Source: an uncultured Pseudoflavonifractor sp.
GTDB lineage: Bacteria > Bacillota > Clostridia > Oscillospirales > Oscillospiraceae
Reading direction: 5' to 3'
Length of the DNA stretch: 40,884 bases
Assembly: GCA_947651395.1 (NCBI GenBank)
Contig: CANSYW010000016.1
Coordinates: 1 to 40,884 of the forward strand
Shown here: positions 8,468 through 32,753 of the stretch, piece after piece
Layout: each line of letters starts with the position of its first letter
How positions within the stretch are numbered: position 1 is the stretch's first letter
Translations under genes and position numbers: made by a program
Notes under the pieces: model-generated
Database searches by the model: none
What the model saw: the letters and a program-made list of their open reading frames with translations, nothing else
What the model was told of the DNA's origin: nothing

Positions 8468-8495
8468 ACCTTTTTCTCTTCTTGCAGCGTGGAAT

Positions 8496-8601
8496 GGGAA
8501 GGCCGCCCTCAGGCGGCCTTCCCTCCCCGCGTTTTATACGCCTCTCCCTTTTCGGGGCGTATAAACCTGTCTTTCAGCCCTGAAGGCCGGGTTTATGCGT
8601 C
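8496..8601 (+). promoter_or_regulatory. Structured intercistronic RNA with alternative hairpins
   Basis: The 168-base gap between the binding-protein gene and the first permease is highly structured. Stem A is a perfect 12-bp hairpin (8496-8507 with 8512-8523). Stem B pairs TTTATACGCC (8533-8542) with GGCGTATAAA (8556-8565). Stem C pairs 8557-8567 with 8590-8600 (11 bp, two G-U) and encloses a small hairpin at 8571-8586. B and C share the same strand, so they exclude each other. No U-tract follows. It probably protects the upstream mRNA or tunes permease expression. Confidence 0.6.
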
Positions 8602-8635
8602 TTGACCCCACCCTTTATAAAGGAGGCTTTCTCCC

Positions 8636-10659: not shown

Positions 10660-10674
10660 GAGGGGGCCCTTTTT

Positions 10675-11721: not shown

Positions 11722-12655
11722 GACACGGGAAAAGCTCCTGGAAGTGGAGAACCTCCAGGTCACCTTCGGCACCAAGCGTCACCCCTTTACCGCGGTGGAC
11801 GGGGTCTCCTTCGATATCTACAGGGGAGAGACCTTCGGCCTGGTGGGCGAATCCGGCTCGGGCAAAACCACCATCGGTCGGGCCATCATCCGGGTCAATC
11901 CGGTCTCCGGGGGCACAGTGAAGTATAAGGGGGAGGTCATCTCCGGCAAAGTGAGCCGGGAGACCGACCGACGCATCATCCAGAACATCCAGATGATCTT
12001 CCAGGATCCCATGGCCTCCCTCAATGAGCGGGCCAAGGTGGACTACATTGTCTCCGAGGGCCTCTACGCCCTGGGGGAAAAACTCAGTGAGGAGGCGCGC
12101 AAGGAGAAGGTGGCCAAAGCCCTCAGCGACGTGGGCCTTCTCCCCGAGTTCGCCAGCCGCTTCCCCCACGAGTTCTCCGGCGGTCAGCGCCAGCGCATCG
12201 GCATCGCCCGGGCCCTCATTATGGAGCCGGAATTCATCATCGCCGATGAGCCCATCTCCGCCTTGGATGTGTCCATCCGGGCCCAGGTACTGAACCTTAT
12301 GTCCCGGCTCCAGAAAGAGCGGGGCCTCACCTATCTCTTCATCGCCCACGATCTGTCGGTGGTACGTTTTATCTCCGACCGCATCGGCGTCATCTACAAG
12401 GGCAAGCTCATGGAGCTGGCGGGCAGTGAGCAGCTCTTCGCCCACCCTCTCCACCCCTATACCCAGGCCCTCCTCTCCGCCATCCCCATGCCCGACCCGG
12501 AGAGCGAACGGGAGAAAAAGCTGGTGGTCTACGATCCCACCCGGCACGGGTATACTGAGAACGATCCCCCCCTCTGGGAAGAGTTGGAGGACGGTCACTT
12601 TGTCCGGGGCAGCCGGCGGGAGCTGGAGGGCTACCGGAAGCTCCTGGGTCAATAA
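11714..12655 (+). CDS. Oligopeptide ABC transporter ATPase, DppF/OppF (YkfD) type
   Basis: A 313-aa partner ATPase. Walker A is GESGSGKTT (about 46-54). Next come the Q-loop FQDPMASLN, the signature FSGGQRQR, Walker [12 protein letters not shown] and the H-loop AHDLS, then the OppF-type tail ([15 protein letters not shown]). The tail beyond 280 is charged and lacks the usual cysteine. It overlaps the upstream ATPase gene by 8 bases and lies 24 bases before the LD-carboxypeptidase gene. In Bacillus the ykf operon also carries an OppF-like ATPase next to the epimerase and endopeptidase, which supports a dedicated muropeptide importer here. Confidence 0.93.
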
Positions 12656-12679
12656 GCACTCCTCAAAGGTGATGATATT

Positions 12680-13594
12680 ATGTTAACTCCTCCCTCCCTC
12701 TACCCCGGCGCGCGGCTGGCCCTGGTGGCTCCGGCATCCGCTGTGCCGGAAGAGCGGCTTCAGCCCGCCATCGACGCCGTCAAAGCCCTGGGACTGGAGC
12801 CGGTGGTCTTCCCTTCTTGCTATTATGTAAACCATCACGGCTACTTTGCCGCCGATGACGCCCAGCGGGCCAAGGATATTCAGGACGCCTTTTCCGACAG
12901 CGACATCCAGGGCGTCATGTGCATCCGGGGCGGCTACGGCGCGGGACGGCTGCTCCCTCTGCTGAACTTCCGGGACATTGCCCGGCACCCCAAGTTCTTC
13001 GCCGGATACTCTGACGTCACCGCCCTCCACATCGCCCTCAATCAGAGCTGCCGGCTGGTGACCTATCACACCCCCATGCCCTCCACCGAGTGGTACAAGG
13101 GGCTGGACGAGTTCACCACCACCTACCTCCGCCGGGCCCTCTTCGGCGCTCTCACCGGCCCCATGCCCCTGGGAGACAAAGTCCGGCCCCTCACCTCCGG
13201 CCGTGCCAAGGGACAGCTGTGCGGCGGCAACCTCTCCCTGGTCCAGAACAGTCTGGGCACCCCCTGGGAGATCGACACCCGGGGCAAGATCCTCTTCCTG
13301 GAGGACGTGGATGAAAAGACCTATCACCTGGACGTGATGCTCACCCAGCTGCGCAACGCCGGAAAGTTCGACGACTGTGACGGCCTTCTGCTGGGGGATT
13401 GGACTGACTGCGTACCCGAGCGGCCCGAGCTCACCCTCACTCTGGAGGAGATCATCCGGGAGACCATCCTCCCCGCCGGCAAGCCGGTGCTCTCAGGCCT
13501 TCCCGCCGGACACAGTCTGCCCACCATGTCCCTGCCCATGGGCGCTACGGTGTCCATGGATGCAGACGCCAAAACGCTGGAGGTTTGCGTATGA
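12680..13594 (+). CDS. ykfA: LD-carboxypeptidase (peptidase family S66)
   Basis: A 304-aa cytoplasmic serine peptidase that removes the terminal D-Ala from murein tetrapeptides (L-Ala-D-Glu-mDAP-D-Ala) to give the tripeptide. Catalytic residues of the S66 family are in place: nucleophile S111 in AGYSDVTAL, E208 in LFLEDVDE and H278 in PAGHSLP. The conserved IRGGYGAGRLLP segment (82-94) forms part of the oxyanion region. There is no signal peptide, as expected for recycling. A MccF-type immunity peptidase is the main alternative within S66, but the operon context favours LdcA/YkfA. The stop overlaps the ATG of the endopeptidase gene (ATGA). Confidence 0.92.
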   Translation: MLTPPSLYPGARLALVAPASAVPEERLQPAIDAVKALGLEPVVFPSCYYVNHHGYFAADDAQRAKDIQDAFSDSDIQGVMCIRGGYGAGRLLPLLNFRDIARHPKFFAGYSDVTALHIALNQSCRLVTYHTPMPSTEWYKGLDEFTTTYLRRALFGALTGPMPLGDKVRPLTSGRAKGQLCGGNLSLVQNSLGTPWEIDTRGKILFLEDVDEKTYHLDVMLTQLRNAGKFDDCDGLLLGDWTDCVPERPELTLTLEEIIRETILPAGKPVLSGLPAGHSLPTMSLPMGATVSMDADAKTLEVCV

Positions 13595-14433
13595 AGGTCA
13601 TTGTCAACTCCCCCATCTGCCCCCTGATGACCCAGCCCCGTCCCGACTGCGAGTGCGCCGACGAGGCCCTTTTCGGCATGGTGCTGGAGGTGCTGGAACA
13701 GACCACCTTCGGCTTCTGGAAGGTGCGCGCCCACTACCGCTACGAGGGCTATGTCTCGGTACACGGGCTGGTCATCAGCGACCAAAGCGCCGAAGCGTGG
13801 GCCACCCTGCCCAAGAAGGTGGTGCTCCACAAGAGCACCTGCGACGTGATGGCCCAGCCCAAGGTCCAGTCCTGGCCCCTGGTCACTCTGCCTCTGGGTG
13901 CGGTGGTGGCGGTGACCGAGCCCCCTGAGACGGACCCCGAGACCGGGGCGCCCACCGGGTGGCAAATGGTCTCCCTCCCCGACGGCCGGGAGGGCTATGT
14001 CCGCTCCAGCTGGCTGGATACCTATTATGACAAGCCCATCGACCTGCCGGAGCGGGAACTGCGCCGGCGGCTGGTGGACACCGCCTGTCTCTTCACCCAC
14101 AGCCAGTACCGCTGGGGGGGCAAGACCCCTCTGGGCGTGGACTGCTCGGGGCTTGTGTCCATGAGCTACCTGCTCAACGGCATCGTCATCTGGCGGGACG
14201 CCTCCATCAAGGAGGGCTTCCCCATCCATCCCATCGACCTGAAGGACGCCGGGCCCGGGGATCTGCTCTTCTTCCCCGGCCATGTGGCCATGTATATGGG
14301 GGACAACCGGTACATCCACTCCACCGGCAAAGCGGGTGACGACGGGGTCACCTTCAACAGCCTGAGCCCCAAGGACGCCATCTTCCGCGCCGACCTGCTG
14401 GAAAAGCTCACCGGTGTGGGAAGCTATTTTTGA
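13591..14433 (+). CDS. ykfC: NlpC/P60 gamma-D-glutamyl-L-diamino acid endopeptidase (YkfC-like)
   Basis: A 280-aa cysteine peptidase expected to split L-Ala-gamma-D-Glu from the diamino acid in murein tripeptide. Two N-terminal bacterial SH3-type domains (about 1-65 and 70-145) precede the NlpC/P60 domain (about 150-280). The catalytic triad is C185 (VDCSG), H231 (FFPGHVAMY) and H243 (YIHS). There is no signal peptide, so it acts in the cytoplasm, as in YkfC recycling enzymes and unlike secreted wall hydrolases. The ATG at 13591 overlaps the upstream stop, which decides the start. It is the last gene of the operon, directly before a strong terminator. The products feed the epimerase (dipeptide) and the mDAP/lysine pool. 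Confidence 0.93.
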   Translation: MKVIVNSPICPLMTQPRPDCECADEALFGMVLEVLEQTTFGFWKVRAHYRYEGYVSVHGLVISDQSAEAWATLPKKVVLHKSTCDVMAQPKVQSWPLVTLPLGAVVAVTEPPETDPETGAPTGWQMVSLPDGREGYVRSSWLDTYYDKPIDLPERELRRRLVDTACLFTHSQYRWGGKTPLGVDCSGLVSMSYLLNGIVIWRDASIKEGFPIHPIDLKDAGPGDLLFFPGHVAMYMGDNRYIHSTGKAGDDGVTFNSLSPKDAIFRADLLEKLTGVGSYF

Positions 14434-20454: not shown

Positions 20455-20470
20455 TGGCATGAAACTTGCA
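20455..20470 (+). promoter_or_regulatory. Sigma-54-type (-24/-12) promoter of the thl-hbd-crt-bcd operon
   Basis: TGGCATGAAACTTGCA fits TGGCAC-N5-TTGCW and differs from the promoter at 20075 at only two of 16 positions. The predicted start is near 20481, giving a leader of about 54 bases to the ATG at 20535. It begins five bases after the NifU-like stop codon. It implies control by an RpoN enhancer-binding protein not in this window. Confidence 0.78.
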
Positions 20471-20534
20471 TTATAGTCAGGCAGTGGTTTTGTGCAGCAG
20501 CAAACCTACTAAATCAAAACAGGAGGAACGCATT

Positions 20535-21737
20535 ATGTTTCATCTGGAGGAAGGACGCACCCCCGTTATCGTCAGTGCCGCCCGCACCGCCACCGGCAAG
20601 TTCGGCGGTTCCCTGAGCGGGATCAACTGCCCTGAGTTGGGGGCCATCTGCGCCAAAGAGGCCATGAAGCGGGCCGGCATTACCGGCGATATGGTGGACG
20701 AGGTAATTTTCGGCACCCACTTCCAGGCCGGGATCGGCGCCAACTCCGCCCGGCAGGTAGCCTTGGGCGCCGGCTGCCCTGTGGAGGTTCCCGCCTGGAC
20801 CGTCAACAAAAACTGCGGCACCGGCCTGAAGGCCATCAACATCACCGCCCAGCAGATCATGCTGGAGGAGGGGGACATCTACATCTCCGGCGGCTGTGAC
20901 ACCATGAGCCGTATTCCTTACCTGAACATCAACCACCGCTTCGGCGCCAAGATGGGCCCCGACACCCTGCAGGACGGTATGCTCTACGACGGTCTGGTGG
21001 ATCCCTTTATGCACTACCATATGGGCGTCACCGCCGAAAACGTGGCCAAAAAGTGCGGCATCACCCGTGAGGCCATGGATGAGTTTGCCCTGGCCAGCCA
21101 CAACAAGGCCGAGGCCGCCATTAAGGCCGGCAAGTTCAGGGACGACATTGTCCCTGTGGAGCTGAAGACCCGGAAGGGCGTCACCGTTTTTGACGAAGAC
21201 GAGACCGTTCGCTTCGGCGCCAAACTGGAGGACTTCCAGAAGCTGAAGCCCTGCTTTGTCACCGACGGCACCGGTATGGTCACCGCCGGAAACGCCTCTC
21301 CCTGTAACGATGAGGGCGCCGCCGTGGTCATGATGAGCTTGCGTAGGGCCAGAGAGCTGGGGCTGAAGCCCAAGTGCGCCATCCGCGCCTGCGCCTCCGC
21401 CGGTGTGGACCCCTCCATCATGGGCTACGCCCCCGTCCTGGCGGTGCAAAAACTGCTGGCAAAAACCGGACTGAAAAAGGAAGATATTGATCTGTGGGAG
21501 CTCAATGAGGCTTTTGCCGCCCAGTCCCTCGGCTGCATCAAGGATCTGGGCCTTGATACGGACAAGGTCAACGTTAACGGCGGTGCCATTGCTCTGGGGC
21601 ATCCCGTGGGCGCCACCGGCGCCCGCCTGGTCATGACCATCATGGCCGAGCTGGAACGCCGTGACGCCAGATACGGCGTTGTCACCTTGTGCATCGGCGG
21701 CGGCCAGGGTATCGCCACTTTGGTGGAGCGGATCTGA
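20535..21737 (+). CDS. thlA: Acetyl-CoA C-acetyltransferase (thiolase)
   Basis: A 400-aa cytoplasmic enzyme that condenses two acetyl-CoA to acetoacetyl-CoA, the entry step of butyrate formation. The nucleophile is C94 (NKNCGTGLKAI), the second active-site pair H356 (GGAIALGHPVGATGAR) and C386 (TLCIGGGQG). SAARTATGKFGG near the N-terminus is typical of biosynthetic thiolases. AGGAGG ends about 9 bases before the ATG at 20535; an in-frame ATG at 20466 lies at the promoter's -12 element and is not used. The active-site segment reads NKNCGTG where NKVCGSG is usual, a conservative variation. It heads the operon thl-hbd-crt-bcd. Confidence 0.95.
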   Translation: MFHLEEGRTPVIVSAARTATGKFGGSLSGINCPELGAICAKEAMKRAGITGDMVDEVIFGTHFQAGIGANSARQVALGAGCPVEVPAWTVNKNCGTGLKAINITAQQIMLEEGDIYISGGCDTMSRIPYLNINHRFGAKMGPDTLQDGMLYDGLVDPFMHYHMGVTAENVAKKCGITREAMDEFALASHNKAEAAIKAGKFRDDIVPVELKTRKGVTVFDEDETVRFGAKLEDFQKLKPCFVTDGTGMVTAGNASPCNDEGAAVVMMSLRRARELGLKPKCAIRACASAGVDPSIMGYAPVLAVQKLLAKTGLKKEDIDLWELNEAFAAQSLGCIKDLGLDTDKVNVNGGAIALGHPVGATGARLVMTIMAELERRDARYGVVTLCIGGGQGIATLVERI

Positions 21738-21788
21738 GTATGGTCTGTCAACACACGTCCATCACATTCGGAAAGGAAGGCTGAGCAC

Positions 21789-22640
21789 ATGAAAGAGATC
21801 AATTCCATCGGCATCGTCGGCGCCGGCCAGATGGGCTCCGGCATCGCCCAGGTCGCCGCCGTCTCCGGTTATCAGGTCAGGCTTTACGACGCCTTTGAGG
21901 GTGTGGCCGGCAAGGCTGTGACCCGCATCGGGAGCACTCTGGAAAAGTTGGTGAGCAAGGGCAAAATGGAGCAGTCCGCCTGCGATGCCGCCGTCCGGGC
22001 CATTACGGTGGTAAACTCCCTGGAGGAGATCGCGCAGTCCGACCTGGTCGTAGAGGCCGCCGTTGAAAAGGTGGAGCTGAAAAAGGAGCTCTTCCGTCAG
22101 CTGGATCAGCTCTCCCCCGCCGATACCATTCTGGCCTCCAACACCTCCTCCATCTCCTTGACCGAGATCGCCTCCGCCACCCGGCGGCCCGACAAGGTCA
22201 TCGGAATGCACTTTTTCAACCCCGCCCCTGTGATGAAGCTGTTGGAGGTCGTAAAGGGCTACTCCACCAGCCAGGAGACCATCGACGTCATCATGGCCAT
22301 CGGTGAGAAGATGAACAAGGTGACCATTCTGGCCCAGGACAAGGCGGGCTTCATTGTCAACCGTGTTCTGGATCCCATGCTCAATGAGGCCATTTTCCTC
22401 CTGGAGGAAGGCGTGGGCACCGCCGAGGACATTGACAACGGCATGAAGTTCGGCTGCAATCACCCCATGGGGCCTTTGGCGCTCACCGACCTGATCGGCC
22501 TGGACGTGCTCCTTGCCGTCATGGAGGTCCTGTACCGGGAGACCGCGGACAGCAAGTACCGCCCCGCTCCCCTGCTCAAAAAGATGGTACGTGCCGGTAA
22601 GCTGGGCAAAAAGACCGGCGAAGGCTTCTTTAAATATTGA
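21789..22640 (+). CDS. hbd: 3-hydroxybutyryl-CoA dehydrogenase
   Basis: A 283-aa enzyme reducing acetoacetyl-CoA to 3-hydroxybutyryl-CoA with NAD(P)H. The Rossmann motif GAGQMG is at 11-16. The family signature HFFNPAPVMKLLEVV carries the catalytic histidine, and GFIVNRVLDPMLNEA and HPMGPLALTDLIGLD belong to the C-terminal dimerisation domain. Length is standard. It begins 51 bases after the thiolase gene with a GGAAAGGAAG ribosome site. The glutamate partner of the catalytic histidine lies in the usual segment before GFIVNR. It is the second enzyme of the four-gene route and is followed after 11 bases by the dehydratase gene. Confidence 0.95.
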   Translation: MKEINSIGIVGAGQMGSGIAQVAAVSGYQVRLYDAFEGVAGKAVTRIGSTLEKLVSKGKMEQSACDAAVRAITVVNSLEEIAQSDLVVEAAVEKVELKKELFRQLDQLSPADTILASNTSSISLTEIASATRRPDKVIGMHFFNPAPVMKLLEVVKGYSTSQETIDVIMAIGEKMNKVTILAQDKAGFIVNRVLDPMLNEAIFLLEEGVGTAEDIDNGMKFGCNHPMGPLALTDLIGLDVLLAVMEVLYRETADSKYRPAPLLKKMVRAGKLGKKTGEGFFKY

Positions 22641-22651
22641 GGTGAACAGAA

Positions 22652-23431
22652 ATGGCTTATCAGTATGTGGAATATAAGGCCCAGGGCCCTCTCGCCTATG
22701 TGACCGTCAATCGCCCCGAAGCGCTCAACGCCCTGAATAAGGACGTCATCAGCGAACTGCTGGACTGCTTTACCAAAATCGACAACGACCCCGGCATCGG
22801 CTGTGTCATTCTCACAGGCGCCGGCCGTTCCTTCGTCGCCGGCGCCGATATCGGAACCATGCGGGATCTGGAGGTGCTGGACGGTCGGGACTTCACCATG
22901 TTCGGTCAACGGCTGATGGACTGTGTGGAGGGGATCCGCCAGCCCGTCATCGCCGCAGTCAACGGCTTTGCCCTGGGCGGCGGCTGTGAGCTGGCCATGG
23001 CCTGCGACATTCGCGTCGCCTCTGAAAAGGCCAAATTCGGTCAGCCTGAGGTAAACCTGGGCATTATCCCCGGCTTTGGCGGAACTCAGCGTCTGCCCCG
23101 GCTCATCGGCAAGGGCATGGCCAAATACCTCATTATGACCGGCGAGCACATTTCCGCGCAGGAGGCCCTGCGCATCGGCCTGGTACAGAAGGTCGTTGCC
23201 CCTGAGGAGCTGACGGCTGAGGCCGAGCGCATCGCAAAGCTCATTGTCTCCAAGGCACCCGTGGCTGTCCGCATGGCCAAGTGTGCTGTCAATGTGGCGG
23301 AAAATACGGACATGGCCTCCGGCGTAGCCTATGAGGCCGAGGCCTATACCACCTGCTTCCAGGCCTCTGACCGGGTGGAGGGGATGACCGCCTTCCTGGA
23401 GAAGCGCGAGGCCTCCTTCCAGGGCAAATAA
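22652..23431 (+). CDS. crt: 3-hydroxybutyryl-CoA dehydratase (crotonase)
   Basis: A 259-aa enoyl-CoA hydratase family enzyme that dehydrates 3-hydroxybutyryl-CoA to crotonyl-CoA. Both catalytic glutamates are present with the family spacing of 20: E113 (ALGGGCELAMACD) and E133 (GQPEVNLGIIPGFGGTQRLPR). The oxyanion loops are AGADIGTM (63-70) and NGFALGGG (104-111). Length matches clostridial Crt. Start ATG at 22652 follows GAGGTGA. It is in the middle of the butyrate operon, between hbd and bcd, so a short-chain substrate is likely. Confidence 0.94.
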   Translation: MAYQYVEYKAQGPLAYVTVNRPEALNALNKDVISELLDCFTKIDNDPGIGCVILTGAGRSFVAGADIGTMRDLEVLDGRDFTMFGQRLMDCVEGIRQPVIAAVNGFALGGGCELAMACDIRVASEKAKFGQPEVNLGIIPGFGGTQRLPRLIGKGMAKYLIMTGEHISAQEALRIGLVQKVVAPEELTAEAERIAKLIVSKAPVAVRMAKCAVNVAENTDMASGVAYEAEAYTTCFQASDRVEGMTAFLEKREASFQGK

Positions 23432-23460
23432 ACCACGATTCCAGAAAGGATTTGATTTAC

Positions 23461-24612
23461 ATGCTCGATTTTCAGCTTGACCAGGAACACCAGGAACTTC
23501 AGGAGCTCTACCGCAGGTTTGCCCAGGAGCGGGTAAAGCCCCTCGCCCACGAGATGGACGAGGCCGAGAAGTACGACATGACCCTGCTTCAGGAGATCAA
23601 GGACTGTGGCTTTTTCGGCATCCCCTTCCATGAAAAATACGGCGGACAGGGCTCTGATGTATTATCCTACGTGCTTTGCATGGAAGAGATGTCCAAAGTG
23701 GACGCCTCCACCGGCATCACTCTGTCCGTCCACACCTCCCTGTGCGCCTCTACCATTGAGGAGTTTGGAACCGAGGAGCAAAAGCAGCAGTGGCTGCGTC
23801 CCCTGGCCGACGGCTCCAGGATCGGCTGTTTTGGCCTTACCGAGCCCGGCGCCGGCTCCGATGTGGCAGGGGCCCGCACTACCGCGGTAAAGGACGGCAA
23901 TGAATACGTCATCAACGGGGAAAAGATCTTTACCACCAACTCCGGCTTTGCCGATACCTTTCTGGTCTTTGCTCTCACCGACAAGAGCGTTCCCGCCGCC
24001 AAGGGGATGTCCGCCTTTCTGGTGAGCCGGGACACCCCGGGTCTCACCGTCACCCCCGATATCCCCCGTATGGGGATCCGGGCAGCCTCCAACGCCGCCG
24101 TGGTCTATGAGGACGTCCGCGTCCCCGCCGAAAACCTGCTGGGCGGAGTGGAAGGCAAGGGCTTCAAGATGGCCATGAAGGCTCTGGACGGCGGCCGGAT
24201 CGGCATTGCCGCTCAGTCGGTGGGTATCGCCCAGGGCGCGCTGGACGAGGCCATCAAGTATTGCAAGGAACGGGTGCAGTTTGGCAAGACCATCGCCTCT
24301 TTCCAAAACACCCAATTCAAAATGGCGGAGCTCCAGACCAGGATCGACGCCGCCCGGCTCATGACCTGGCGGGCGGCCGCGGCCAAGGATCAGGGTCTGC
24401 CCTATAATGTATATGCCGCCATGGCCAAGCTGATGGCCTCCGAGGTGGCCAATGAGACCACCCGGGCCTGTGTCCAGTTCCTGGGCGGCTATGGCTTTGC
24501 CCGGGAGTATGCTGTGGAACGCATGATGCGTGACGCCAAGATCACCGAGATCTATGAGGGCACCTCGGAGGTCATGAAGATGGTCATCTCCGGCTCCATG
24601 AATCTGAAATAA
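23461..24612 (+). CDS. bcd: Butyryl-CoA dehydrogenase (acyl-CoA dehydrogenase family)
   Basis: A 383-aa FAD enzyme that reduces crotonyl-CoA to butyryl-CoA. It shows the N-terminal helical domain, the middle FAD domain with FGLTEPGAGSDVAG and INGEKIFTTNSG, and the C-terminal helical domain with the catalytic base E366 (IYEGTSEVM) and FLGGYGFAREY. The ATG at 23461 is preferred over an upstream TTG because AAAGGA is then 10 bases away. In clostridia this enzyme works with EtfAB to bifurcate electrons to ferredoxin. No etfB or etfA follows here, so the partner must be encoded elsewhere. It is the last gene of the operon; a hairpin lies about 70 bases downstream. Confidence 0.93.
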   Translation: MLDFQLDQEHQELQELYRRFAQERVKPLAHEMDEAEKYDMTLLQEIKDCGFFGIPFHEKYGGQGSDVLSYVLCMEEMSKVDASTGITLSVHTSLCASTIEEFGTEEQKQQWLRPLADGSRIGCFGLTEPGAGSDVAGARTTAVKDGNEYVINGEKIFTTNSGFADTFLVFALTDKSVPAAKGMSAFLVSRDTPGLTVTPDIPRMGIRAASNAAVVYEDVRVPAENLLGGVEGKGFKMAMKALDGGRIGIAAQSVGIAQGALDEAIKYCKERVQFGKTIASFQNTQFKMAELQTRIDAARLMTWRAAAAKDQGLPYNVYAAMAKLMASEVANETTRACVQFLGGYGFAREYAVERMMRDAKITEIYEGTSEVMKMVISGSMNLK

Positions 24613-24791: not shown

Positions 24792-25715
24792 TCAGGAAAT
24801 GCCGAAGAGCACCACCAGCACCGACATAGCCACCACGCTGAACACCGCATAGATGGAGTTCACCGACGCCGCCATGGCCGTGGGGCCGTTCAGGTCGGCG
24901 GTAAAGCTGGCCGAGAGTACGGCGATGGGCGACAGGGCCAGAATGGCCAGCACCCGGCGGGTCTCCAACCCCACAGGGAGCAGGAAGTAGAGCCCTGCCG
25001 CCACCAGGATGCTGACTGCCGCCCGCAGTCCCACCAGCTTGAGGGCCTTGACCCCATCCCCCGGCTCCATGTGAAAATCCACCATCATGCCGATGAAGAG
25101 CATGGAGACAAAGGCATTGGCATTGGCCGCGGGAGTCAGCAGCGTGACCGCGGTCTGGGGGACCTTCAGCCCTACGGCTGTGTAGAGGATCATGAAAAGA
25201 TAGGTCACAAAGGGCACCACATGGAGGAGCTTTTTTCCCATATCCTTCAGGGAAAAGCCGGAGCCCTCCCCCCTGTCCACCAGGTTGGAGACGATGGCGT
25301 AACCGCCGCCGGTGGCAATGGTGGAGTTGCCCACATCAAACAGGCACGCCAGCGCCACCCCGTAGCCCCCCAGAAAGTTTTGCAGAAAGGGCAGGGCAAA
25401 GCAGCCCACATTATAGCCGCAGAAGCTCATCATCCAGAGCACCTTGTCGTTTCGGCTCTTCCGCCAGGAAAACAGGGCCGCCAGCGCGATCATGCCCAGG
25501 TTCATCCCCAGGCCCAGCACCGCCACCCCCAACAGGGCCGCGTCCATCTGAAAGCCGTTGAAGCTGACAATAATGGCCGCAGGGATGGTGAGATTCATCA
25601 CGATCCGCTGTACCACGGTATACTCCTTGGGGCCAAACACCCCCCGCTGACGGAGAATATACCCCGCGCAGATCACCAACAGAAAGGACGCCGCCTTCCA
25701 GATCACATCCCACAT
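24792..25715 (-). CDS. AEC family transporter (auxin efflux carrier-like permease)
   Basis: A 307-aa integral membrane protein with about ten hydrophobic segments in the two-half AEC/MdcF arrangement. The first half contains LRQRGVFGPKEYTVVQRIVMNLTIPA and GYNVGCFALPFLQNFLGG, and the second half TPAANANAFVSMLFIGMMVDF. Bacterial members move carboxylates such as malate, malonate or other anions; the substrate is not readable from sequence. GAGGG precedes the ATG by about 9 bases. It is the last gene of the TRAP/kinase/aldolase operon, 30 bases after the aldolase gene, and could export or import a carboxylate product of that pathway (inference). Confidence 0.88.
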   Translation of the reverse strand: MWDVIWKAASFLLVICAGYILRQRGVFGPKEYTVVQRIVMNLTIPAAIIVSFNGFQMDAALLGVAVLGLGMNLGMIALAALFSWRKSRNDKVLWMMSFCGYNVGCFALPFLQNFLGGYGVALACLFDVGNSTIATGGGYAIVSNLVDRGEGSGFSLKDMGKKLLHVVPFVTYLFMILYTAVGLKVPQTAVTLLTPAANANAFVSMLFIGMMVDFHMEPGDGVKALKLVGLRAAVSILVAAGLYFLLPVGLETRRVLAILALSPIAVLSASFTADLNGPTAMAASVNSIYAVFSVVAMSVLVVLFGIS

Positions 25716-25745
25716 ATGTACCCTCGCTCCCTCTGTCCTTCTTTT

Positions 25746-26507
25746 TTAGCCGCCTTTCACATCCCTTATCATAGCCTGAATTCCTTTTTTTAGCAAGCCC
25801 AATTCACTGTCGCAGCTAAATAAGGTCATTCCCCGGGCCTCCCAGCGGCGCAGGAAGGCGGGATTGGAGGCGATAACGCCGGTGGGCTTTCCGGCGGCCT
25901 TGCCCGCAGCCACCACCTTGGTCATGGCCGACTCCATCTCCGGGGTGTCGAAGTTCCCGGTACAGCCCAGGCCGCAGGCCAGATCGTTGGGGCCCACAAA
26001 CAGGCCGTCGATGCCCTCCACGGCGGCGATGGCCTGAGCGTTCTCCACCCCCAGACTGCTTTCGATCTGAGCAAAGAACATGGTGCGGCCGTTGGCCTTC
26101 ACCGTGTAATCGGCAAGCTTCCCGGGGTTGTAGTCACTGTGAGGCCGCATGGTGGAGATGCCCCGCTCTCCCTGAGGAGCATACTTGCCGAAACGGACCA
26201 GGGCCTCCGCCTGCTCAGGCGTCTCCAGCATGGGGATCAGAATGCCGTCCACTCCGGCGTCCAGATACTTCTGGATACACTCTCTGGAGATCTGGGGGGC
26301 CCGGACAATGAGGGGAAAGCCCACTCCGCTGGCCACGGCGGCCAGGGCGGCCACCTGGGAATAGTCAAAATAGCCGTGCTCGCAGTCCACGATCACATAG
26401 TCCAGTCCCGCGGCCTGCATCAGCCGGGTCAGGTTGGGCGCCGGGATCTCGGAAAGAAACGCGCCCAGCACCCTTTCATTGTTGTGGATACGCTCTTTGA
26501 AGCTCAT
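25746..26507 (-). CDS. HpcH/HpaI-type 2-oxo-3-deoxy acid aldolase
   Basis: A 253-aa class II (metal-dependent) aldolase of the HpcH/HpaI/citrate lyase family, which cleaves 2-oxo-4-hydroxy acids to pyruvate and an aldehyde. VDCEHGYFDY (40-49) carries the catalytic histidine, PLIVRAP the phosphate or carboxylate-binding arginine, and QIESSLGVENA with FVGPNDLACGLG the metal-binding Glu and Asp. Length is standard. Its ATG overlaps the stop of the kinase gene (ATGA). In this operon it would split the intermediate made from the TRAP-imported substrate. Relatives act on 2-oxo-3-deoxy-rhamnonate, 4-hydroxy-2-oxoheptanedioate and others, so the exact substrate is open. Confidence 0.88.
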   Translation of the reverse strand: MSFKERIHNNERVLGAFLSEIPAPNLTRLMQAAGLDYVIVDCEHGYFDYSQVAALAAVASGVGFPLIVRAPQISRECIQKYLDAGVDGILIPMLETPEQAEALVRFGKYAPQGERGISTMRPHSDYNPGKLADYTVKANGRTMFFAQIESSLGVENAQAIAAVEGIDGLFVGPNDLACGLGCTGNFDTPEMESAMTKVVAAGKAAGKPTGVIASNPAFLRRWEARGMTLFSCDSELGLLKKGIQAMIRDVKGG

Positions 26508-27862
26508 ATTGTCTCTCTCCCATCAACACATTTTTTTGCCAGCTTGAAAAGGCCCCCATACACCTCGTCGGCGGAGGCGGCCACCGTGTGGGGGATGTCC
26601 ATCGCCTCGGTAACGGCCTGACGGAGAATGGGATTTTTCAAAATGGCGCCGCCGGACAGATAGAGGGAGCCGGAAAACCGGGCGTAGTCACACAACTGCT
26701 CGGCGAAGCGGCGGTACTGCCGGCCAAAATCCTTGGCGGTGGCGTGGATCACGTGCTCCAGGGTCAGGTTCACATGGTCGATGCCCCCGATGGAGCCCCC
26801 CGCCAGTCGGTCGGGCAACTCGTAGAAGCTGCAGTCCACCGTCAGCCCACCATCCTCCCTCCAGTCGGAGTCCAGGGCCTGGATCCGCTCCCAGACCGTC
26901 TCCCGGGAGAGGCTCTGCCCGAAGATCCGCTCTCCCACGTCCCGAAGGTAGTCGATCTGCACGTCAAAGTTGCGCCCTCCGGGCATCCGGGAGATCACGT
27001 TGCAGTAATTGCCGTCGTAATAGGGCCGTATCTCATAGCTGCCGGGAACATAGCGGTCGGTGATATACACCAGCTGTCCGCTGGTGGCGATGTTTACGAT
27101 CATATCCCCCGACCTGGCCCCCGTGCCGTAGACGCTGGTCTGCACGTCTCCCACATCGGGGTAGACCTTCAGCTCCACCTCCCCGTCCCGGTAGACCCCG
27201 CAGCAGCCCAGATCCCTGGTGATCCGAGGCAGCTGGAAAAAGTCCAGCCCCACCCGGGCCAGAATATCGTGACGCCAGGTCCCCTCCAGGATATTGGCAA
27301 AGCCCATGGGGGCGGCGTTGGTGATGTGGCATACGCTGTTGCCGGTAAGCTTCTCAATGAGGTAGGCGCCCAGAGTATATACCCTGGCCTCCCCTCCCCG
27401 CTCCAGCTTCCCCTGGCGAAAGAGGGCATAGAGATTGCACAGGGCCAGAGCCGGCTTCACCGGCACGCCGGTATTCTCCATCACACCGGGAGGCAGCAGC
27501 TCCTCCAGCTCCTCCAGATAGCTCTTTCCCGTCTCCGGGTCCGTGTGAAGGCAGCGGGTGTCCTGCCAGGAGATATAGGTGTCCGCTTCCAGACCGGGGT
27601 GACAGAGCACACAGCCGTGCTGCTGGGTAGACATGAGCAGCCCCCCCGCGTCGGGATAGGCCCGGGCACAGCGGTGAACCACCTCACGCACGGCGTTCAG
27701 CAGAGCCTGGGCGTCATTCTCAAAAACCGCCGGATCCGGATCCGGCCGCTTGGCCGGGGTATGACATTTCTCCGTATACAGGATCTTCTCCACCTCCACG
27801 TCAAAGACCGCGGCCTTGATGAAGGTGCTTCCAATATCCAGAGTGATGACAATATTGTCCAT
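26504..27862 (-). CDS. FGGY-family carbohydrate kinase
   Basis: A 452-aa kinase of the FGGY family, which phosphorylates sugars or polyols with ATP. Domain 1 has the phosphate-binding DIGSTFIKAAVFD (8-20) and STQQHGCVLCH. ISWQDTR gives the likely catalytic Asp. Domain 2 has the GTGARSGDMIVNIATSGQ loop and LSGGAILKNPILRQAV near residue 420, the adenosine motif. It fits no named subgroup clearly (xylulo-, rhamnulo-, glucono-). The ATG at 27862 is preferred because GGGAGG lies just upstream; earlier in-frame starts would run into dctM. It lies 14 bases after dctM and overlaps the aldolase gene by four bases. Confidence 0.87.
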   Translation of the reverse strand: MDNIVITLDIGSTFIKAAVFDVEVEKILYTEKCHTPAKRPDPDPAVFENDAQALLNAVREVVHRCARAYPDAGGLLMSTQQHGCVLCHPGLEADTYISWQDTRCLHTDPETGKSYLEELEELLPPGVMENTGVPVKPALALCNLYALFRQGKLERGGEARVYTLGAYLIEKLTGNSVCHITNAAPMGFANILEGTWRHDILARVGLDFFQLPRITRDLGCCGVYRDGEVELKVYPDVGDVQTSVYGTGARSGDMIVNIATSGQLVYITDRYVPGSYEIRPYYDGNYCNVISRMPGGRNFDVQIDYLRDVGERIFGQSLSRETVWERIQALDSDWREDGGLTVDCSFYELPDRLAGGSIGGIDHVNLTLEHVIHATAKDFGRQYRRFAEQLCDYARFSGSLYLSGGAILKNPILRQAVTEAMDIPHTVAASADEVYGGLFKLAKKCVDGRETI

Positions 27863-27876
27863 GTCCGCCTCCCGGG

Positions 27877-29187
27877 TCAGCCCACAACGGGCGACGCCAT
27901 CAGCAGATTGGGCAGGAAGGTGACCAGAGGCTCGCAGAGCCAGAGAATGACCACTTCGGCCATCAGCACCAGGATCCATGGGATCAGGGCCCTGCTGACC
28001 CGCTCAATACTCAGCTTCTGCAGGCTGCAGGTGGTCATCAGCACCACACCCACCGGCGGGGTAATGTTGCCGATCATGGCGATAATGATGATGCAGATAC
28101 CCGCGTGAACCGGATCAAAGCCGGCATTGTTCAGCAGGGGGAGCACCATGGGCACAAAGACCATGATATTCACGTTGGGATCGCTCAGGCAGCCCAGGAT
28201 CAGGAAGAGGATGGTCACGCACAGGGCCACCAGGAACTTGCTGTCCCCGGCAAAGCCGGAGAAGGCGGCAAAAAGCCGATCCTGCAGGTTCTCCGCCGTG
28301 AGCACAAAGCTGAAGCACTTGGAGGCTGGGATGATGAGCAGCACCGAGCCGCTGGCGATAAAGACGCTCTGAAGGCTCCCTACCAGATCCTTGATGCCCA
28401 TGGTGCGGTAAATGATGACGCCCAGGATCAGCGCGTAGAGCACGGCCACAGCCGCAGCCTCGGTGGTGGTGACCACACCCATGTAGATACCACCCAGCAG
28501 GATCACGGGAGTGAGCAGGGGCAGGATGCAGGAGATGAAGGAGTGGAGCAAATGGGTCAGATAATAGCGCCAGCCCTGCCACTCCAGCCTGGGCCCGTTA
28601 TGACGGATGGACCAGATAAAGACATAGAGCATCATAATGGCGCCCATCAGGATGCCGGGAATGATGCCGCCGAAGAGCAGCTTGCCCACCGACACGTTGG
28701 CCACCATGGCATAGACCACCGCGGGAATGCTGGGGGGGATGATGGGGCCCACGGTAGAGGAGGCGATGGTGGTGCAGGCGCTGAACTCCTCGTCGAAGCC
28801 CTCGTCCACCATGGCCTGATAGGCCAGGTTGCCGATGCCGCCGGCGTCAGCCACGGCGGAGCCGGACATGCCGGCGAAGATGATGGAGGTGGTGATATTC
28901 ACATGACCCATGCCGCCGGGAATATACCCCACCAGATCCCGGCAGAACCCGAAGATCCGGTCTGAGACTGAGGTGCGGTTCATCACCTCGGCGGTGAGAA
29001 TAAACAACGGAATGGCGATCAGGGCAAAGTTATTGAGGCCGGTGAACATCCGGGTCCCCATCATGGAGAGACCGATCCCCGCGTTGAGGGCATACAGGAA
29101 GGAGGAAGTGATCATGGCTCCCGCGATGGGCATACCCAGCAGGAAGAGGATCACAAAGCTCACCAGGAAAATCATCAACGGGCTCAT
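27877..29187 (-). CDS. dctM: TRAP transporter large permease (DctM)
   Basis: A 436-aa membrane protein of the DctM family with about twelve to thirteen helices. It shows the typical start (FLVSFVILFLLGMPIAGAM), GMSGSAVADAGGIGNLAY near residue 105, STVGPIIPPSIPAV (about 145), and TEAAAVAVLYALILG. Together with DctQ it forms the sodium-driven channel of the TRAP transporter. The gene overlaps dctQ by four bases and is followed 14 bases later by the FGGY kinase gene, so one transcript covers uptake and metabolism. Confidence 0.95.
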   Translation of the reverse strand: MSPLMIFLVSFVILFLLGMPIAGAMITSSFLYALNAGIGLSMMGTRMFTGLNNFALIAIPLFILTAEVMNRTSVSDRIFGFCRDLVGYIPGGMGHVNITTSIIFAGMSGSAVADAGGIGNLAYQAMVDEGFDEEFSACTTIASSTVGPIIPPSIPAVVYAMVANVSVGKLLFGGIIPGILMGAIMMLYVFIWSIRHNGPRLEWQGWRYYLTHLLHSFISCILPLLTPVILLGGIYMGVVTTTEAAAVAVLYALILGVIIYRTMGIKDLVGSLQSVFIASGSVLLIIPASKCFSFVLTAENLQDRLFAAFSGFAGDSKFLVALCVTILFLILGCLSDPNVNIMVFVPMVLPLLNNAGFDPVHAGICIIIIAMIGNITPPVGVVLMTTCSLQKLSIERVSRALIPWILVLMAEVVILWLCEPLVTFLPNLLMASPVVG

Positions 29188-29702
29188 TTACTCTCCTCCC
29201 CTCTCTTCTCCTTGCGCTCTTTCAGGAGCATGACCGTGTCCTGGAGCATGTTGAACAAAATATGTACGCACATCACCCCAAAGACGATGGGCAAAATCAT
29301 GTAGATGTTCTTCATGGGCCAGCGCAGCACGTTGGAGATGGGCAGGGTGCGCATCAGGCTCTGAAGAGGCTTCATATAGAGCAGAAACATAACGATCATG
29401 ATCGCGTTCATCACCATGCGCAGCACGTACTGCAGCACCTTGGGAAAAAGGTTGGTAAAGGCGGTGATGCGCAGATGGGAATCGGTACTCATGGCATAGG
29501 CCGCCGCCAGGAATCCGAACCAGACAAAGAGAAAGCCGTTGAGCTCATCCGACCAGTTCAGACCGCTTTGAAACAGGTAGCGCAGGGCGGCGTTGATCAC
29601 CATGACCACAAAAAGCACTGCCAGGGTGATACATCCCAGAATCTTTTCCACCTTTTGCAGCGCGCTGTTTACAAGAGAAAAACCACGGTATAGCTGTTCC
29701 AT
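29184..29702 (-). CDS. dctQ: TRAP transporter small permease (DctQ)
   Basis: A 172-aa membrane protein with four predicted helices (about 20-42, 52-72, 90-112 and 130-152), the DctQ pattern. The motif NWSDELNGFLFVWFGFLAA is the family signature. A Lys/Glu-rich tail (KERKEKRGEESK) ends it. It overlaps dctM by four bases, so the two are translationally coupled. A terminator-like hairpin lies between it and the upstream binding-protein gene and should lower its expression relative to that protein. Confidence 0.92.
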   Translation of the reverse strand: MEQLYRGFSLVNSALQKVEKILGCITLAVLFVVMVINAALRYLFQSGLNWSDELNGFLFVWFGFLAAAYAMSTDSHLRITAFTNLFPKVLQYVLRMVMNAIMIVMFLLYMKPLQSLMRTLPISNVLRWPMKNIYMILPIVFGVMCVHILFNMLQDTVMLLKERKEKRGEESK

Positions 29703-29732
29703 GTCAGACCTGCCTTTCTATCGGGTATTCTG

Positions 29733-29772
29733 AAAAAGAAGGGGCCCGCGGCGACGGTGCGCTGCGGGCCCC
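29733..29772 (-). terminator. Intercistronic terminator/attenuator between dctP and dctQ
   Basis: On the minus strand GGGGCCCGC (29772-29764) pairs with GCGGGCCCC (29749-29741), followed by TTCTTTTTC (29740-29732). It ends part of the transcripts after dctP, a common way to make much more binding protein than membrane permease. Confidence 0.8.
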
Positions 29773-29799
29773 CTTTATGTCCGCTGATAAAGTGGGCGA

Positions 29800-30840
29800 T
29801 CAGGCCATAGCCTGGATCTGCTCGTACCAGTTCTGCCAGGCGGGGTAACCCTCCACCACCTTGGCGGCGTTCTCCCGGAAGGGAGTGGTGTCGATGTCAT
29901 CGATGACGGTCATGCCGTTGTCGATGCAGGTCTGGGTCAGGGCCGCCTCGTTCTCCTGGGTCAGCTCGTCGATGCGGTCGCCCTGGCGGGTGAAGACCTC
30001 CTCAAAGATGGCCTTGTCCTCATCGGACAGGGAGTTCCACAGATCCTCGTTGATGATGGTGGAGGAGCAGGCCAGCATGTGCTGGGTCATCATCAGGTGG
30101 CTCTGGACCTCGTAGAACTTCATGGTAATGATCTGGGTCAGGGGGTTCTCCTCGCAGTCGGCCAGGCCGGTCTGCAGGCTCATGTACACGTCCTCAATGG
30201 GAATGGAGGTGATGGCCACATTGTAGACGTCGGCCAGGGTGGAGTAGGGAGCAAAGTTCACGCAGCGGAGGGTCAGACCCTGCATGTCGTCCAGGGTGCG
30301 GATCTCCTTGTTGGCGGTGAGGTTACGGAAGCCGAAGTTGTACATGTTCAGCTGCTTGATGCCGCCTACGGCGCCGCCGATGGCCTCGCGCATCTCGTCA
30401 TAGAGATCGCTGGCCTTGAACTTATTCCAGTGGTCGTAGCTCTGGAAGCAGTAGGGGGCGAACAGAACGCCGGCATCCTCCAACCAGTCGGAGGCGGAGT
30501 CCAGGCAGGCGATGTCCAGATCGCCCATCTGGCAGGCGGTGATGCTGTCGGTGTAGTTGGCGTAGGTGCCGTTGGGATAGAGGGTCAGACCATAGCGGCC
30601 GTTGGTCTTCTCATAGAGCAGCTCGGCGGACTCCTGGAAGGCCACATAGACGGGATGCCCCTCGGCAAACACGTGGCTGGCCTTCAGATACTTGGTCTCC
30701 ACGGCGGCCTCGGACTGAGCGGGCTCCGCCGCCTTGGACTCGGCGGGCGCGGGGGTGTTGGAGCTGCCGCCGCCACAGGCGGCCATACCCAGCATCATGC
30801 TGGCAGACAGAACAAGAGCAAGGACATTTTTCTTTTTCAT
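29800..30840 (-). CDS. dctP: TRAP transporter substrate-binding lipoprotein (DctP)
   Basis: A 346-aa DctP-family binding protein. The signal peptide ends in MAAC-GGG, with C22 the likely lipidated residue, followed by a Pro/Ala/Glu tether (23-50). The mature fold shows LKASHVFAEGHPVYVAFQESAELLYEKTNGRYGLTLYP, the conserved segments GDLDIACL and LTLRCVNFAPYS (the substrate-carboxylate arginine region) and YEVQSHLMMTQHM. TRAP proteins of this type bind organic acids such as sugar acids, dicarboxylates or 2-oxo acids. Which acid is unknown, but the kinase and aldolase downstream suggest a polyhydroxylated acid. The gene heads the operon with a promoter at 30912-30940. Confidence 0.94.
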   Translation of the reverse strand: MKKKNVLALVLSASMMLGMAACGGGSSNTPAPAESKAAEPAQSEAAVETKYLKASHVFAEGHPVYVAFQESAELLYEKTNGRYGLTLYPNGTYANYTDSITACQMGDLDIACLDSASDWLEDAGVLFAPYCFQSYDHWNKFKASDLYDEMREAIGGAVGGIKQLNMYNFGFRNLTANKEIRTLDDMQGLTLRCVNFAPYSTLADVYNVAITSIPIEDVYMSLQTGLADCEENPLTQIITMKFYEVQSHLMMTQHMLACSSTIINEDLWNSLSDEDKAIFEEVFTRQGDRIDELTQENEAALTQTCIDNGMTVIDDIDTTPFRENAAKVVEGYPAWQNWYEQIQAMA

Positions 30841-30911
30841 TTTTGATACCCCTTTCGATATTGGATCGTTCCTTTTCGGCCATCCTCCAGAGGGTGGCCT
30901 CCTCGCTCAAA

Positions 30912-30940
30912 ATTGTAGGTCATTTCAAAAACAAAGTCAA
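30912..30940 (-). promoter_or_regulatory. Promoter of the TRAP/kinase/aldolase operon
   Basis: On the minus strand there is TTGACT (30940-30935), a 17-base spacer and TACAAT (30917-30912). Transcription would start near 30905, leaving a leader of about 65 bases before dctP. A 14-bp palindrome lies 12 bases upstream of the -35 box. Confidence 0.8.
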
Positions 30941-30952
30941 TAGTTTTATCAA

Positions 30953-30966
30953 AAATGTCGACATTT
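30953..30966. promoter_or_regulatory. Perfect 14-bp palindrome, candidate operator of the fused GntR regulator
   Basis: AAATGTCGACATTT is its own reverse complement. It lies in the 293-base divergent region between dctP and the reductase-GntR fusion gene, just upstream of the dctP -35 box. Its TGT/ACA half-sites resemble operators of FadR-type GntR proteins. A weaker inverted repeat, CCTGA-CAAA-TCAGG, lies at about 30995-31008. Binding by the neighbouring regulator is an inference. Confidence 0.55.
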
Positions 30967-31072
30967 ATTTTTTTATGTCCCCTTTTTTGTAGGGCCTGAC
31001 AAATCAGGGGCAGAATTTCTGTCTATTTTCACAAAGGGGATCCGGGAGGCTTGTAAATCTCTTCAATTGGGG

Positions 31073-31101
31073 GTGAAATTTTTCATCCTTTTTGGTATAA
31101 T
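31073..31101 (+). promoter_or_regulatory. Promoter of the reductase-GntR fusion gene
   Basis: GTGAAA (31073-31078), a 17-base spacer and a perfect TATAAT (31096-31101) with an extended TG element just before it. Transcription would start near 31108, about 26 bases before the GTG start. Confidence 0.75.
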
Positions 31102-31133
31102 CAAGGTGCCTGACGCGAAAGGGGGACTATTGT

Positions 31134-32753
31134 GTGAAACAGATCCAAAAGGTGGCCGTGATCGGCCTCGGCGCTCTGGGCGCCTGTTACGCCAATCAGA
31201 TCCTGCGGGGCGATCCTTCGGTAGAGCTCTATGGAGTGCTCCGCCCCGGCGCCGTCGCCGCCCCTGTCCTGCTCAACAACGTCCCTTTGCCGCTGGAGTG
31301 CCGCACTCCGGCGCAGTTGAAGGGGTTTCAGCCCGACCTGATCCTGGTGGCGGTCAAATCCTACGACCTGGAGGAGGTCATTGAGGCCATAACGCCCATG
31401 GTGGGCGAGGACACCCTTCTGCTCTCTCTGCTCAACGGAATGGAGAGCGAGGAGCGGCTCTCTCAGGTCTTTGGAGCTGAGCATGTGCTCTATGCTACTG
31501 TAGTGGGGGCGGACACCAACCGAAGCGAGCGGCAGGTCCACTGCCAGAACTCCGGCGTTATTCTCTTCGGCGACCGGAACGGGGCGCCCAACCTTGCCGT
31601 CGACCGACTGGAGGAATTTGTCCACCGCTGCGGGCTCACCGCCCGGCGGGTGGAGGATATCACTTATCAGATGTGGTGTAAGCTCCTGGTGAACGTGGGC
31701 TTCAATCAGGCCAGCACCGCCTATCAGCTTACCTATGGTCAATTCCGGGAGAATCCTGAGGCCATGGAGGTCATGCGCCAGGCCCAGCGGGAGGTCTGCA
31801 CCCTGGCCCAGCAGTGCGGCGTGGAGCTGGGAGAGGAAGCCATCCAAACCTGGGAAAAGACCCTGGCCCAGCTCTCCCCCGACGGCCGCTCCTCCATGCT
31901 CCAGGACTATTGGATGGGGCGTCGGTTGGAGACCGATATTTTTGGCGACTATGTCTCCCGGCTGGGGCGGAAGCTGGGCGTCCCCACCCCGGTCAGCGAC
32001 CGGCTCAACGCCCGGATCAAGCAGATGGAGCGCAGCCGAAACCTGACGGAAGCGCCCAGTCCCGAAGAGCCCCCCCACCTCCCCACCGGCAAGCTCTCCG
32101 TGGCCACCCCCAAAAAGATCGCCAGCCAGATCCGCATCGATATCGTCAAACAAAAATATAAGGCGGGAGACAAGCTGGTGGAGACCCAACTCTCCGAGCA
32201 GTACGCCGCCAGCCGCAGTTCGGTGCGCACCGCCCTGCAGATCCTGTCCGGTGAGGGACTCATCATCACCCACCCCAACGGACGCCGGGAGGTGGTAGCC
32301 TTTTCCGAACAGCAGGTGAAAAATCTCTACGACTTCCGCTGGCTCATTGAAAACAGAGCGCTGGAAATGGCCCTGGAAAAATGCGGCTCCGTCTATTCCA
32401 AACTGGCCGAGATCCTGGGGGTCATTGAGGGCTGCTGCGCCTGCCCCGCCGAGGAGGTGGACTGGTATGACCTGGACGTACGCTTCCACCGGGCCCTGGT
32501 CGCCTCGGCGGAAAACATTTTTCTCTCCAATGCCTGGGAGAGCAACGCGGAGATCTTCTACACCCTGATGAATTTCAACACCCTGATCGACTACAGCGAG
32601 CGCTATGCCGCCGAGTTTTTTGAAAAGCACCGCCGCATATACGAGCTGCTCCTGTCCCGGGACCGCCAATGTCTGACCCAGCTCAAACAACACATTCTGG
32701 ACGCGGAGAGCATCGCCAATTCCGTGCTGGAGTGCTTCGGCGCCCCCCGCTGA
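31134..32753 (+). CDS. Fusion of ketopantoate reductase-like enzyme (ApbA/PanE) with GntR/FCD regulator
   Basis: One 539-aa polypeptide with an enzyme in front and a transcription factor behind. Residues 1-298 are an ApbA/PanE-type 2-oxo acid reductase: GLGALG (11-16), KSYDLE, WCKLLVNVGFNQ with catalytic-type K183 and N187/N191, and SSMLQDYWMGRRLETD (253-268). It looks catalytically intact. A Pro/Glu-rich linker (300-325) leads to a GntR winged helix (326-390; LVETQLSEQYAASRSSVRTA, LQILSGEGLIITH). An FCD effector domain follows (395-535) with D448, H452, H499 and H520, the usual metal-site pattern. GntR proteins normally begin with the HTH; here it is internal. No ribosome site precedes the GntR part. 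The GTG start has GGGGG 8-12 bases upstream. It is divergent from the TRAP operon, which it probably controls. Confidence 0.9.
   Translation: MKQIQKVAVIGLGALGACYANQILRGDPSVELYGVLRPGAVAAPVLLNNVPLPLECRTPAQLKGFQPDLILVAVKSYDLEEVIEAITPMVGEDTLLLSLLNGMESEERLSQVFGAEHVLYATVVGADTNRSERQVHCQNSGVILFGDRNGAPNLAVDRLEEFVHRCGLTARRVEDITYQMWCKLLVNVGFNQASTAYQLTYGQFRENPEAMEVMRQAQREVCTLAQQCGVELGEEAIQTWEKTLAQLSPDGRSSMLQDYWMGRRLETDIFGDYVSRLGRKLGVPTPVSDRLNARIKQMERSRNLTEAPSPEEPPHLPTGKLSVATPKKIASQIRIDIVKQKYKAGDKLVETQLSEQYAASRSSVRTALQILSGEGLIITHPNGRREVVAFSEQQVKNLYDFRWLIENRALEMALEKCGSVYSKLAEILGVIEGCCACPAEEVDWYDLDVRFHRALVASAENIFLSNAWESNAEIFYTLMNFNTLIDYSERYAAEFFEKHRRIYELLLSRDRQCLTQLKQHILDAESIANSVLECFGAPR

Follow-up and report, generated by a model that had tools for sequence, protein, structure and literature searches.

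A single gene joining a ketopantoate-reductase-like domain to a GntR/FCD regulator opposite a TRAP transporter operon in the Oscillospiraceae

In an uncultured Pseudoflavonifractor sp., a single open frame on the plus strand (31134-32753) of a 40,884-nt contig, hereafter the window, meaning the whole stretch of DNA that was analysed, encodes a 539-residue protein with a GTG start in which a ketopantoate reductase (KPR)-type domain is followed by a linker, a GntR winged helix and an FCD domain. Judged by comparison with a second genome, the join between reductase and regulator is genuine and does not reflect a base-count error. On balance, we consider that the protein probably unites in one chain a functional 2-oxo-acid reductase and the local regulator, of the FCD-type GntR class, of a divergent operon. 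To our knowledge, few enzymes are fused to the regulators of their own operons, and we found no description of an ApbA-GntR-FCD protein among the titles and abstract openings of mostly open-access papers.

The fused gene and its join

All four domains score above the Pfam gathering cut-offs: ApbA (residues 7-149, E 1.2e-20), ApbA_C (residues 175-299, E 6.1e-27), GntR (residues 327-383, E 9.4e-13) and FCD (residues 398-521, E 9.4e-13). The original prediction, that a complete ApbA/PanE-type reductase shares one frame with a GntR and an FCD domain, is thereby borne out. On the plus strand, the ketopantoate-reductase-like domain occupies residues 1-301 (31134-32036; Pfam and the PanE alignment below), the linker residues 302-322 (32037-32099), the winged-helix domain residues 323-390 (32100-32303; Pfam) and the FCD domain residues 391-535 (32304-32738; Pfam and alignment with 3fms). 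A likely ribosome-binding site read directly from the plus strand, AAAGGGGG (31118-31125), stands 8 bases before the start codon, and a promoter scan returned a promoter-like GTGAAA-17-TATAAT further upstream on the same strand (31073-31101). An AlphaFold model of the fusion, built from a two-sequence input, had a mean pLDDT of 42.6 and was unusable.

A run of seven C residues (C7) at 32070-32076 had been flagged in advance as a place where a miscounted base could have fused two separate genes, and it does sit in the linker; moreover, the window genome (G000) is a draft of 31 contigs, 78.5% complete. That a sequencing or assembly error in this run produced the fusion is nevertheless exceedingly improbable, because an independent complete genome reads through the junction without it. 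This genome, AP025582.1 (Oscillospiraceae bacterium CE91-St43; locus L003), which we take to be identical with sample genome G269 (same genus as the window genome, 97% complete), carries a full-length fused relative with 71% identity and the same four domains above the Pfam cut-offs. The relative's linker is equal in length (21 residues) and shares only 3 of the 21 residues, with no C7 run. Conservation between the two copies is uneven: 195 of 301 residues are identical in the reductase part, against 60 of 68 in the winged helix and 125 of 145 in the FCD domain (185 of 213 for the regulator part together). By the NG86 method applied to the two fused copies, the reductase part has a dN of 0.266 and a dS of 0.887 (dN/dS 0.30), and the winged helix plus FCD a dN of 0.082 and a dS of 0.741 (dN/dS 0.11), so purifying selection appears to act on both halves and to be stronger on the regulator.

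Two products from the one gene, the full fusion and a free GntR/FCD protein, would require an internal start. Two in-frame candidates, either of which would give a regulator of ordinary size, are common to both copies: an ATG (residue 298, or 300 in the relative; product of ~242 aa) and a GTG (residue 323, or 325 in the relative). The claim that no ribosome site precedes the GntR part stands for the window, where neither start has a convincing site, and needs a reservation for the relative, whose GTG is preceded at four bases by a weak AAAAGAG; neither copy has a convincing Shine-Dalgarno sequence at the ATG, which in any case lies at the end of ApbA_C (175-299), a stretch conserved as protein. 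For lack of a convincing site at either shared start, internal initiation of the GntR part is unlikely, and we hold a two-product arrangement to be very improbable.

The reductase and regulator halves

We aligned the fused proteins with E. coli PanE (from NC_000913.3), together with the reductases of four stand-alone loci (L005, L035, L091 and L095, retained by a length filter from 11 named) and of the Cupriavidus plasmid KK10. The seven PanE active-site residues K72, N98, K176, N180, N184, S244 and E256 correspond to K75, N101, K183, N187, N191, S254 and E266 of the fusion and are retained in both fused copies; the KK10 reductase is without equivalents of N180 and N184. The glycines of the PanE GxGxxG motif, A10, L11 and D248 are also matched in the fusion, and the motif and residues K183, N187 and N191 that had been read from the window sequence are thus found where PanE has them. 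Differences fall at PanE C8, R31 (an NADP contact), T118, H120, N241 and I257; with R31 changed, either NADH or NADPH may be the preferred cofactor. Roles for K72, N98, K176, N180, S244 and E256 are given in PMC3478992. With ApbA and ApbA_C both present, a score of 190 bits for the window protein against the NCBIfam TIGR00745 (2-dehydropantoate 2-reductase) cut-off of 141, and the active-site residues kept, the N-terminal half belongs to the PanE/ApbA family (TIGR00745, PF02558 + PF08546), sharing both full-length domains and the seven residues, and the reductase active site apparently is complete. The fusion departs from that family in its C-terminal regulator, in its position opposite a TRAP/kinase/aldolase operon and in the absence of a panB or panC match from either genome.

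This last point bears on the substrate. Neither panB (PF02548) nor panC (PF02569) was matched in either of the two genomes with the fusion, of which G000 is incomplete (78.5%), with positive controls returned in 11 and 9 of 14 named genomes, respectively. A role in pantothenate synthesis is therefore unlikely, and the fused reductase is unlikely to be a true PanE. It is also the one ApbA_C protein found in each of the two genomes. Conservation is lower in the reductase half than in the regulator half, so the reductase may have drifted in its role. According to PMC10127515, E. coli KPR reduces several formaldehyde adducts from the aldolase YfaU, which makes a KPR acting downstream of an HpaI-family aldolase chemically plausible. 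In that study E. coli KPR also rejected 4-substituted 4-hydroxy-2-oxo acids. These are the adducts that we would expect from an HpaI-type aldolase given larger aldehydes, so the proposed substrate link between aldolase and reductase is a weak one.

In the regulator half, H452, H499 and H520 align with the metal-holding histidines of TM0439 (3fms), as does D448, and the three histidines are kept in both fused copies; by this alignment the FCD domain appears to be of the metal-binding type, as had been proposed. The triad is named in PMC7674646 and PMC4746285. A winged helix followed by FCD, both above the Pfam cut-offs, and a conserved short palindrome near the presumed target genes, AAATGTCGACATTT, fit an FCD-type GntR regulator, whereas the winged helix is not N-terminal: the HTH starts only at residue 327, behind the reductase. 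Set beside CitO, DgoR, TM0439 and Atu1419, the fusion shares the order of winged helix and FCD and a place at a divergent operon, has a metal histidine triad like that of TM0439 and a short ATGT..ACAT palindrome like that of Atu1419, but differs from all of them in the complete reductase of ~300 aa in front of the winged helix. Since an FCD domain is in its own right a ligand-sensing module, of which DgoR and CitO offer examples, the sensing of redox state or an oxo acid by the reductase, as originally suggested, is not required.

Divergent operon, candidate operator and distribution

The TRAP/kinase/aldolase operon expected to diverge from the fused gene is confirmed by Pfam, with a perfect palindrome, AAATGTCGACATTT, between the two. 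From the intergenic region outward, its minus-strand genes encode the solute-binding protein DctP (29800-30840; 81% identical in the relative), the small TRAP permease DctQ (29184-29702; 72%), the large TRAP permease DctM (27877-29187; 89%), an FGGY-type kinase (26504-27979, with a start probably at 27862; 77%), an HpcH/HpaI-type aldolase (25746-26507, also matched in NCBIfam; 78%) and a Mem_trans permease (24792-25715; 68%). The same gene order makes up a cassette of ~8 kb in both genomes (window 24792-32753; L003 1610-9626). In the window it is flanked by pyruvate carboxylase and acyl-CoA dehydrogenase genes, and in the relative by an RpoA gene and further ORFs that look ribosomal-protein-like by eye; with order conserved and neighbours different, the cassette seems to have moved as a unit. 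Adjoining it in CE91-St43 is a gene for a 379-aa protein (L003 393-1532, plus strand) whose start looks dinucleotide-binding-like by eye and which had no Pfam match at E <= 0.001.

Elsewhere on the plus strand of the window, a butyrate-type module (20466-24612) encodes, one after another, thiolase, 3-hydroxyacyl-CoA dehydrogenase, enoyl-CoA hydratase and acyl-CoA dehydrogenase. Another set of genes (5306-14433), encoding an MR_MLE enolase-superfamily enzyme, a family-5 solute-binding protein, an ABC permease, an S66 LD-carboxypeptidase and NlpC/P60, is possibly an operon for cell-wall peptide salvage.

The intergenic DNA of the two genomes has diverged except for an identical block of 18 bp, AAATGTCGACATTTATTT (30953-30970), which holds the palindrome (30953-30966) and which we regard as a candidate operator; in 200 mononucleotide shuffles the longest shared block was 14 bp at most and 8.2 bp on average. 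In searches of both whole genomes, exact AAATGTCGACATTT occurs only at the fusion locus, and the sole copy with one mismatch is a second site at the fusion locus of G269; the window has no second copy. With two mismatches, there were 3 places in G000 against 4 for the reversed control, and 6 in G269 against 3, counts close enough to the control that no wider regulon is evident. For TGTCGACATTTAT with at most one mismatch, matches were confined to the fusion locus and one place in G000 (C21); its control gave 0 matches in G000 and matched on both strands in G269. At its core the palindrome reads ATGTCGACAT, which is similar to ATGTATACAT, the operator proven for Atu1419, an FCD regulator (PMC7797058).

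The scan placed a promoter-like TTGACT-17-TACAAT for dctP on the minus strand at 30912-30940, and the relative has TTGACA-17-TACAAT in the same layout. In both genomes the palindrome lies upstream of this site, its centre at about -54 if dctP transcription starts ~7 bases past the -10. A position upstream of -35 regions is also where CitO, an FCD activator, binds (PMC6608401 and PMC4746285), and by analogy with its sites activation at dctP is a little likelier than repression. On the regulator's own side, the relative has a plus-strand TTTATA-16-TATAAT from the promoter scan (L003 7819-7846) that overlaps the first palindrome, and its second copy stands just upstream of the TATAAT nearest the regulator gene (L003 7967; a box absent from the scan output). 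Palindrome sites that overlap, or lie directly next to, TATAAT boxes directed towards the regulator gene suggest self-control.

The fusion is rare in our samples, in which up to three candidates were scored per genome, the samples overlapped slightly and distant fusions could escape. In the family sample (n = 400; 74 matched at all at E <= 1e-20), two genomes had full-length matches. The class sample (n = 391; 25 matched at E <= 1e-45) and the phylum sample (n = 398; 23 matched at E <= 1e-40) each had a full-length match only in the window's own genome, and the remaining listed matches end at residues 291-323, within or just past the reductase part. Conservation of the fusion therefore rests on two genomes, only one related fused sequence having been found. 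The kinase shows the same rarity (3 of 400 genomes at E <= 1e-60, including one distant relative, in G383, with 32% identity and a different gene context), and the regulator half was matched in 9 of 330 family genomes at E <= 1e-12, the best beyond the two fusions being 31% identical. Twelve stretches of viral contigs matched a pattern, none coding for a relative, and among 626 plasmid records none contained a single place that covered 80% of the query. A supposed third fusion (G383:C57), in which FCD was matched in a 534-aa frame, reads as an ordinary GntR/FCD gene with a frame that is open upstream by chance, and the long frames around KPR matches in G358, G210 and G171 are not ApbA-GntR-FCD fusions.

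The converse expectation, that relatives might always keep the two domains as separate genes, did not hold, given one fused relative; more distant relatives do have them separate. We collected 120 stand-alone KPR loci (28 + 24 + 22 + 46) from the family, class and phylum samples with ~1.5 kb on each side, and searched them at E <= 1e-6 with a GntR/FCD profile of our own, built from 15 seed rows in which two loci appear twice. A GntR/FCD gene beside KPR was uncommon, occurring at 4 of the 120 loci (11 of the 120 extend <1.2 kb beyond the KPR frame in one direction, and more distant regulators could escape the profile), namely in G358, G209, G196 and G136, with Pfam confirming all four; the last two belong to one genus and have the regulator first, and in G358 and G209 KPR comes first on the same strand. 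Wider stretches also brought into view GntR/FCD genes 4.4 and 5.3 kb from KPR in G312 and G239. Of six plasmid KPR loci inspected from the 626 records, the Cupriavidus plasmid (KK10, H1) has KPR followed by GntR/FCD as separate genes; in the stretches shown for H2, H4, H9, H12 and H19, for which the gene table is incomplete, no adjacent GntR/FCD gene is annotated. As a separate observation, two stretches (L088 1663-7779 and L089 5225-12263) have a stand-alone KPR near genes that look acetolactate-synthase-like and ketol-acid-reductoisomerase-like by eye, and in both an FCD regulator is divergent from a dehydratase-like gene.

In G358 (L174 4942-12780) the genes run, on one strand, DctP, DctQ, DctM, N and C halves of transketolase, KPR, GntR/FCD and MOFRL/DUF4147; in G209 (L175 4368-12082) the order is DctP, DctQ, DctM, a transketolase N-half-like frame (L175 7357-8202, assigned by eye), the C half, KPR, GntR/FCD and an IclR-type gene. 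A recurrent TRAP pathway, in which DctPQM, a split transketolase, KPR and GntR/FCD share one strand, can thus be seen in two genera. The gaps between KPR and GntR/FCD measure 111 bp (G358) and 240 bp (G209). These pairs resemble the fusion in protein types, order, strand and DctPQM genes, but they are separate genes, accompanied by transketolase halves and not by kinase and aldolase, and their regulator lies on the operon strand and not divergent from it. Since unfused neighbours of this kind occur in DctPQM-transketolase operons, a plausible origin of the fusion is a reductase gene and a regulator gene lying side by side in a TRAP operon; at 25-30% identity for the adjacent regulators and 27-32% for the reductases, the pairs are an ancestor type or analogues and not direct ancestors.

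Proposed function and its alternatives

We propose that the N-terminal half is a KPR-fold reductase that probably acts on a 2-oxo (or hydroxy-2-oxo) acid from the pathway fed by the TRAP importer, the kinase and the HpaI-type aldolase, and that the C-terminal half would bind AAATGTCGACATTT between the divergent genes and tune the DctPQM-kinase-aldolase-permease operon in one direction or the other. The likely effector would be a sugar acid, hydroxy acid or oxo acid held at the FCD metal. Tethering would supply reductase and regulator in equal numbers, and the tethered enzyme could produce or consume the effector right next to the domain that senses it. The neighbouring gene pairs of relatives suggest that what was joined is a pathway enzyme and its local regulator.

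Other accounts of the same protein can be weighed against this one. The two genes may have been joined neutrally, each half working without influence on the other; separate adjacent KPR and regulator genes do exist in TRAP operons, the linker is unchanged in length but has only 3 of 21 residues in common, and the fusion occurs in few sampled genomes; against this, the join has survived a divergence of the copies down to 71% identity and a change of neighbours around their cassettes, and we rate neutral joining as a minor, though not negligible, possibility. We are slightly more doubtful that the reductase domain has turned into a sensor whose binding of NAD(P)H, a 2-oxo acid or both is signalled to the DNA-binding half, with hardly any turnover or none. 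BzdR, whose shikimate-kinase-like domain became an effector domain (PMC3602430), offers a precedent, and both the faster evolution of the reductase part and its standing as the sole ApbA_C protein found in either genome would fit; yet the enzyme domain of BzdR lost catalysis while seven active-site residues are kept here, a likely sensor is already present in the FCD domain and its histidine triad, and the unfused pair occurs in catabolic-looking operons of two relatives. A further reading, to which we give the same low weight as to the pure sensor, is that the reductase is both working enzyme and second input, such that the NAD(P)H or oxo-acid state would alter binding of AAATGTCGACATTT by the GntR part, redox state and imported acid would be integrated, and the FCD effector would be erased or made by the enzyme itself.

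The working reductase tethered to its local regulator has relatives in concept. PutA and BirA are trigger enzymes or bifunctional enzyme-regulators, with a metabolic enzyme and a transcription factor in one chain, and MocR-type GntR proteins begin with the HTH and carry an aminotransferase-like domain instead of FCD; the fusion differs from all of these in enzyme class. BzdR, too, combines an enzyme-derived and a DNA-binding domain in one chain at a catabolic locus, but its enzyme domain is C-terminal, serves as the effector domain and has lost catalysis (PMC3602430), whereas that of the fusion is N-terminal, looks intact from its residues and is accompanied by a separate sensor domain. Judged by residues only, the fusion is thus not a BzdR-like protein with a non-catalytic enzyme domain as effector domain.

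What sets this protein apart is that it keeps an apparently intact active site plus a separate ligand-sensing domain, and that TRAP operons in the same family contain unfused counterparts of its halves side by side. It offers a natural before-and-after case of an enzyme gene and a regulator gene becoming one. With a conserved palindrome and a compact cassette, the system is directly testable in vitro, and it provides a case in which to ask whether such a join creates feedback between flux and expression.
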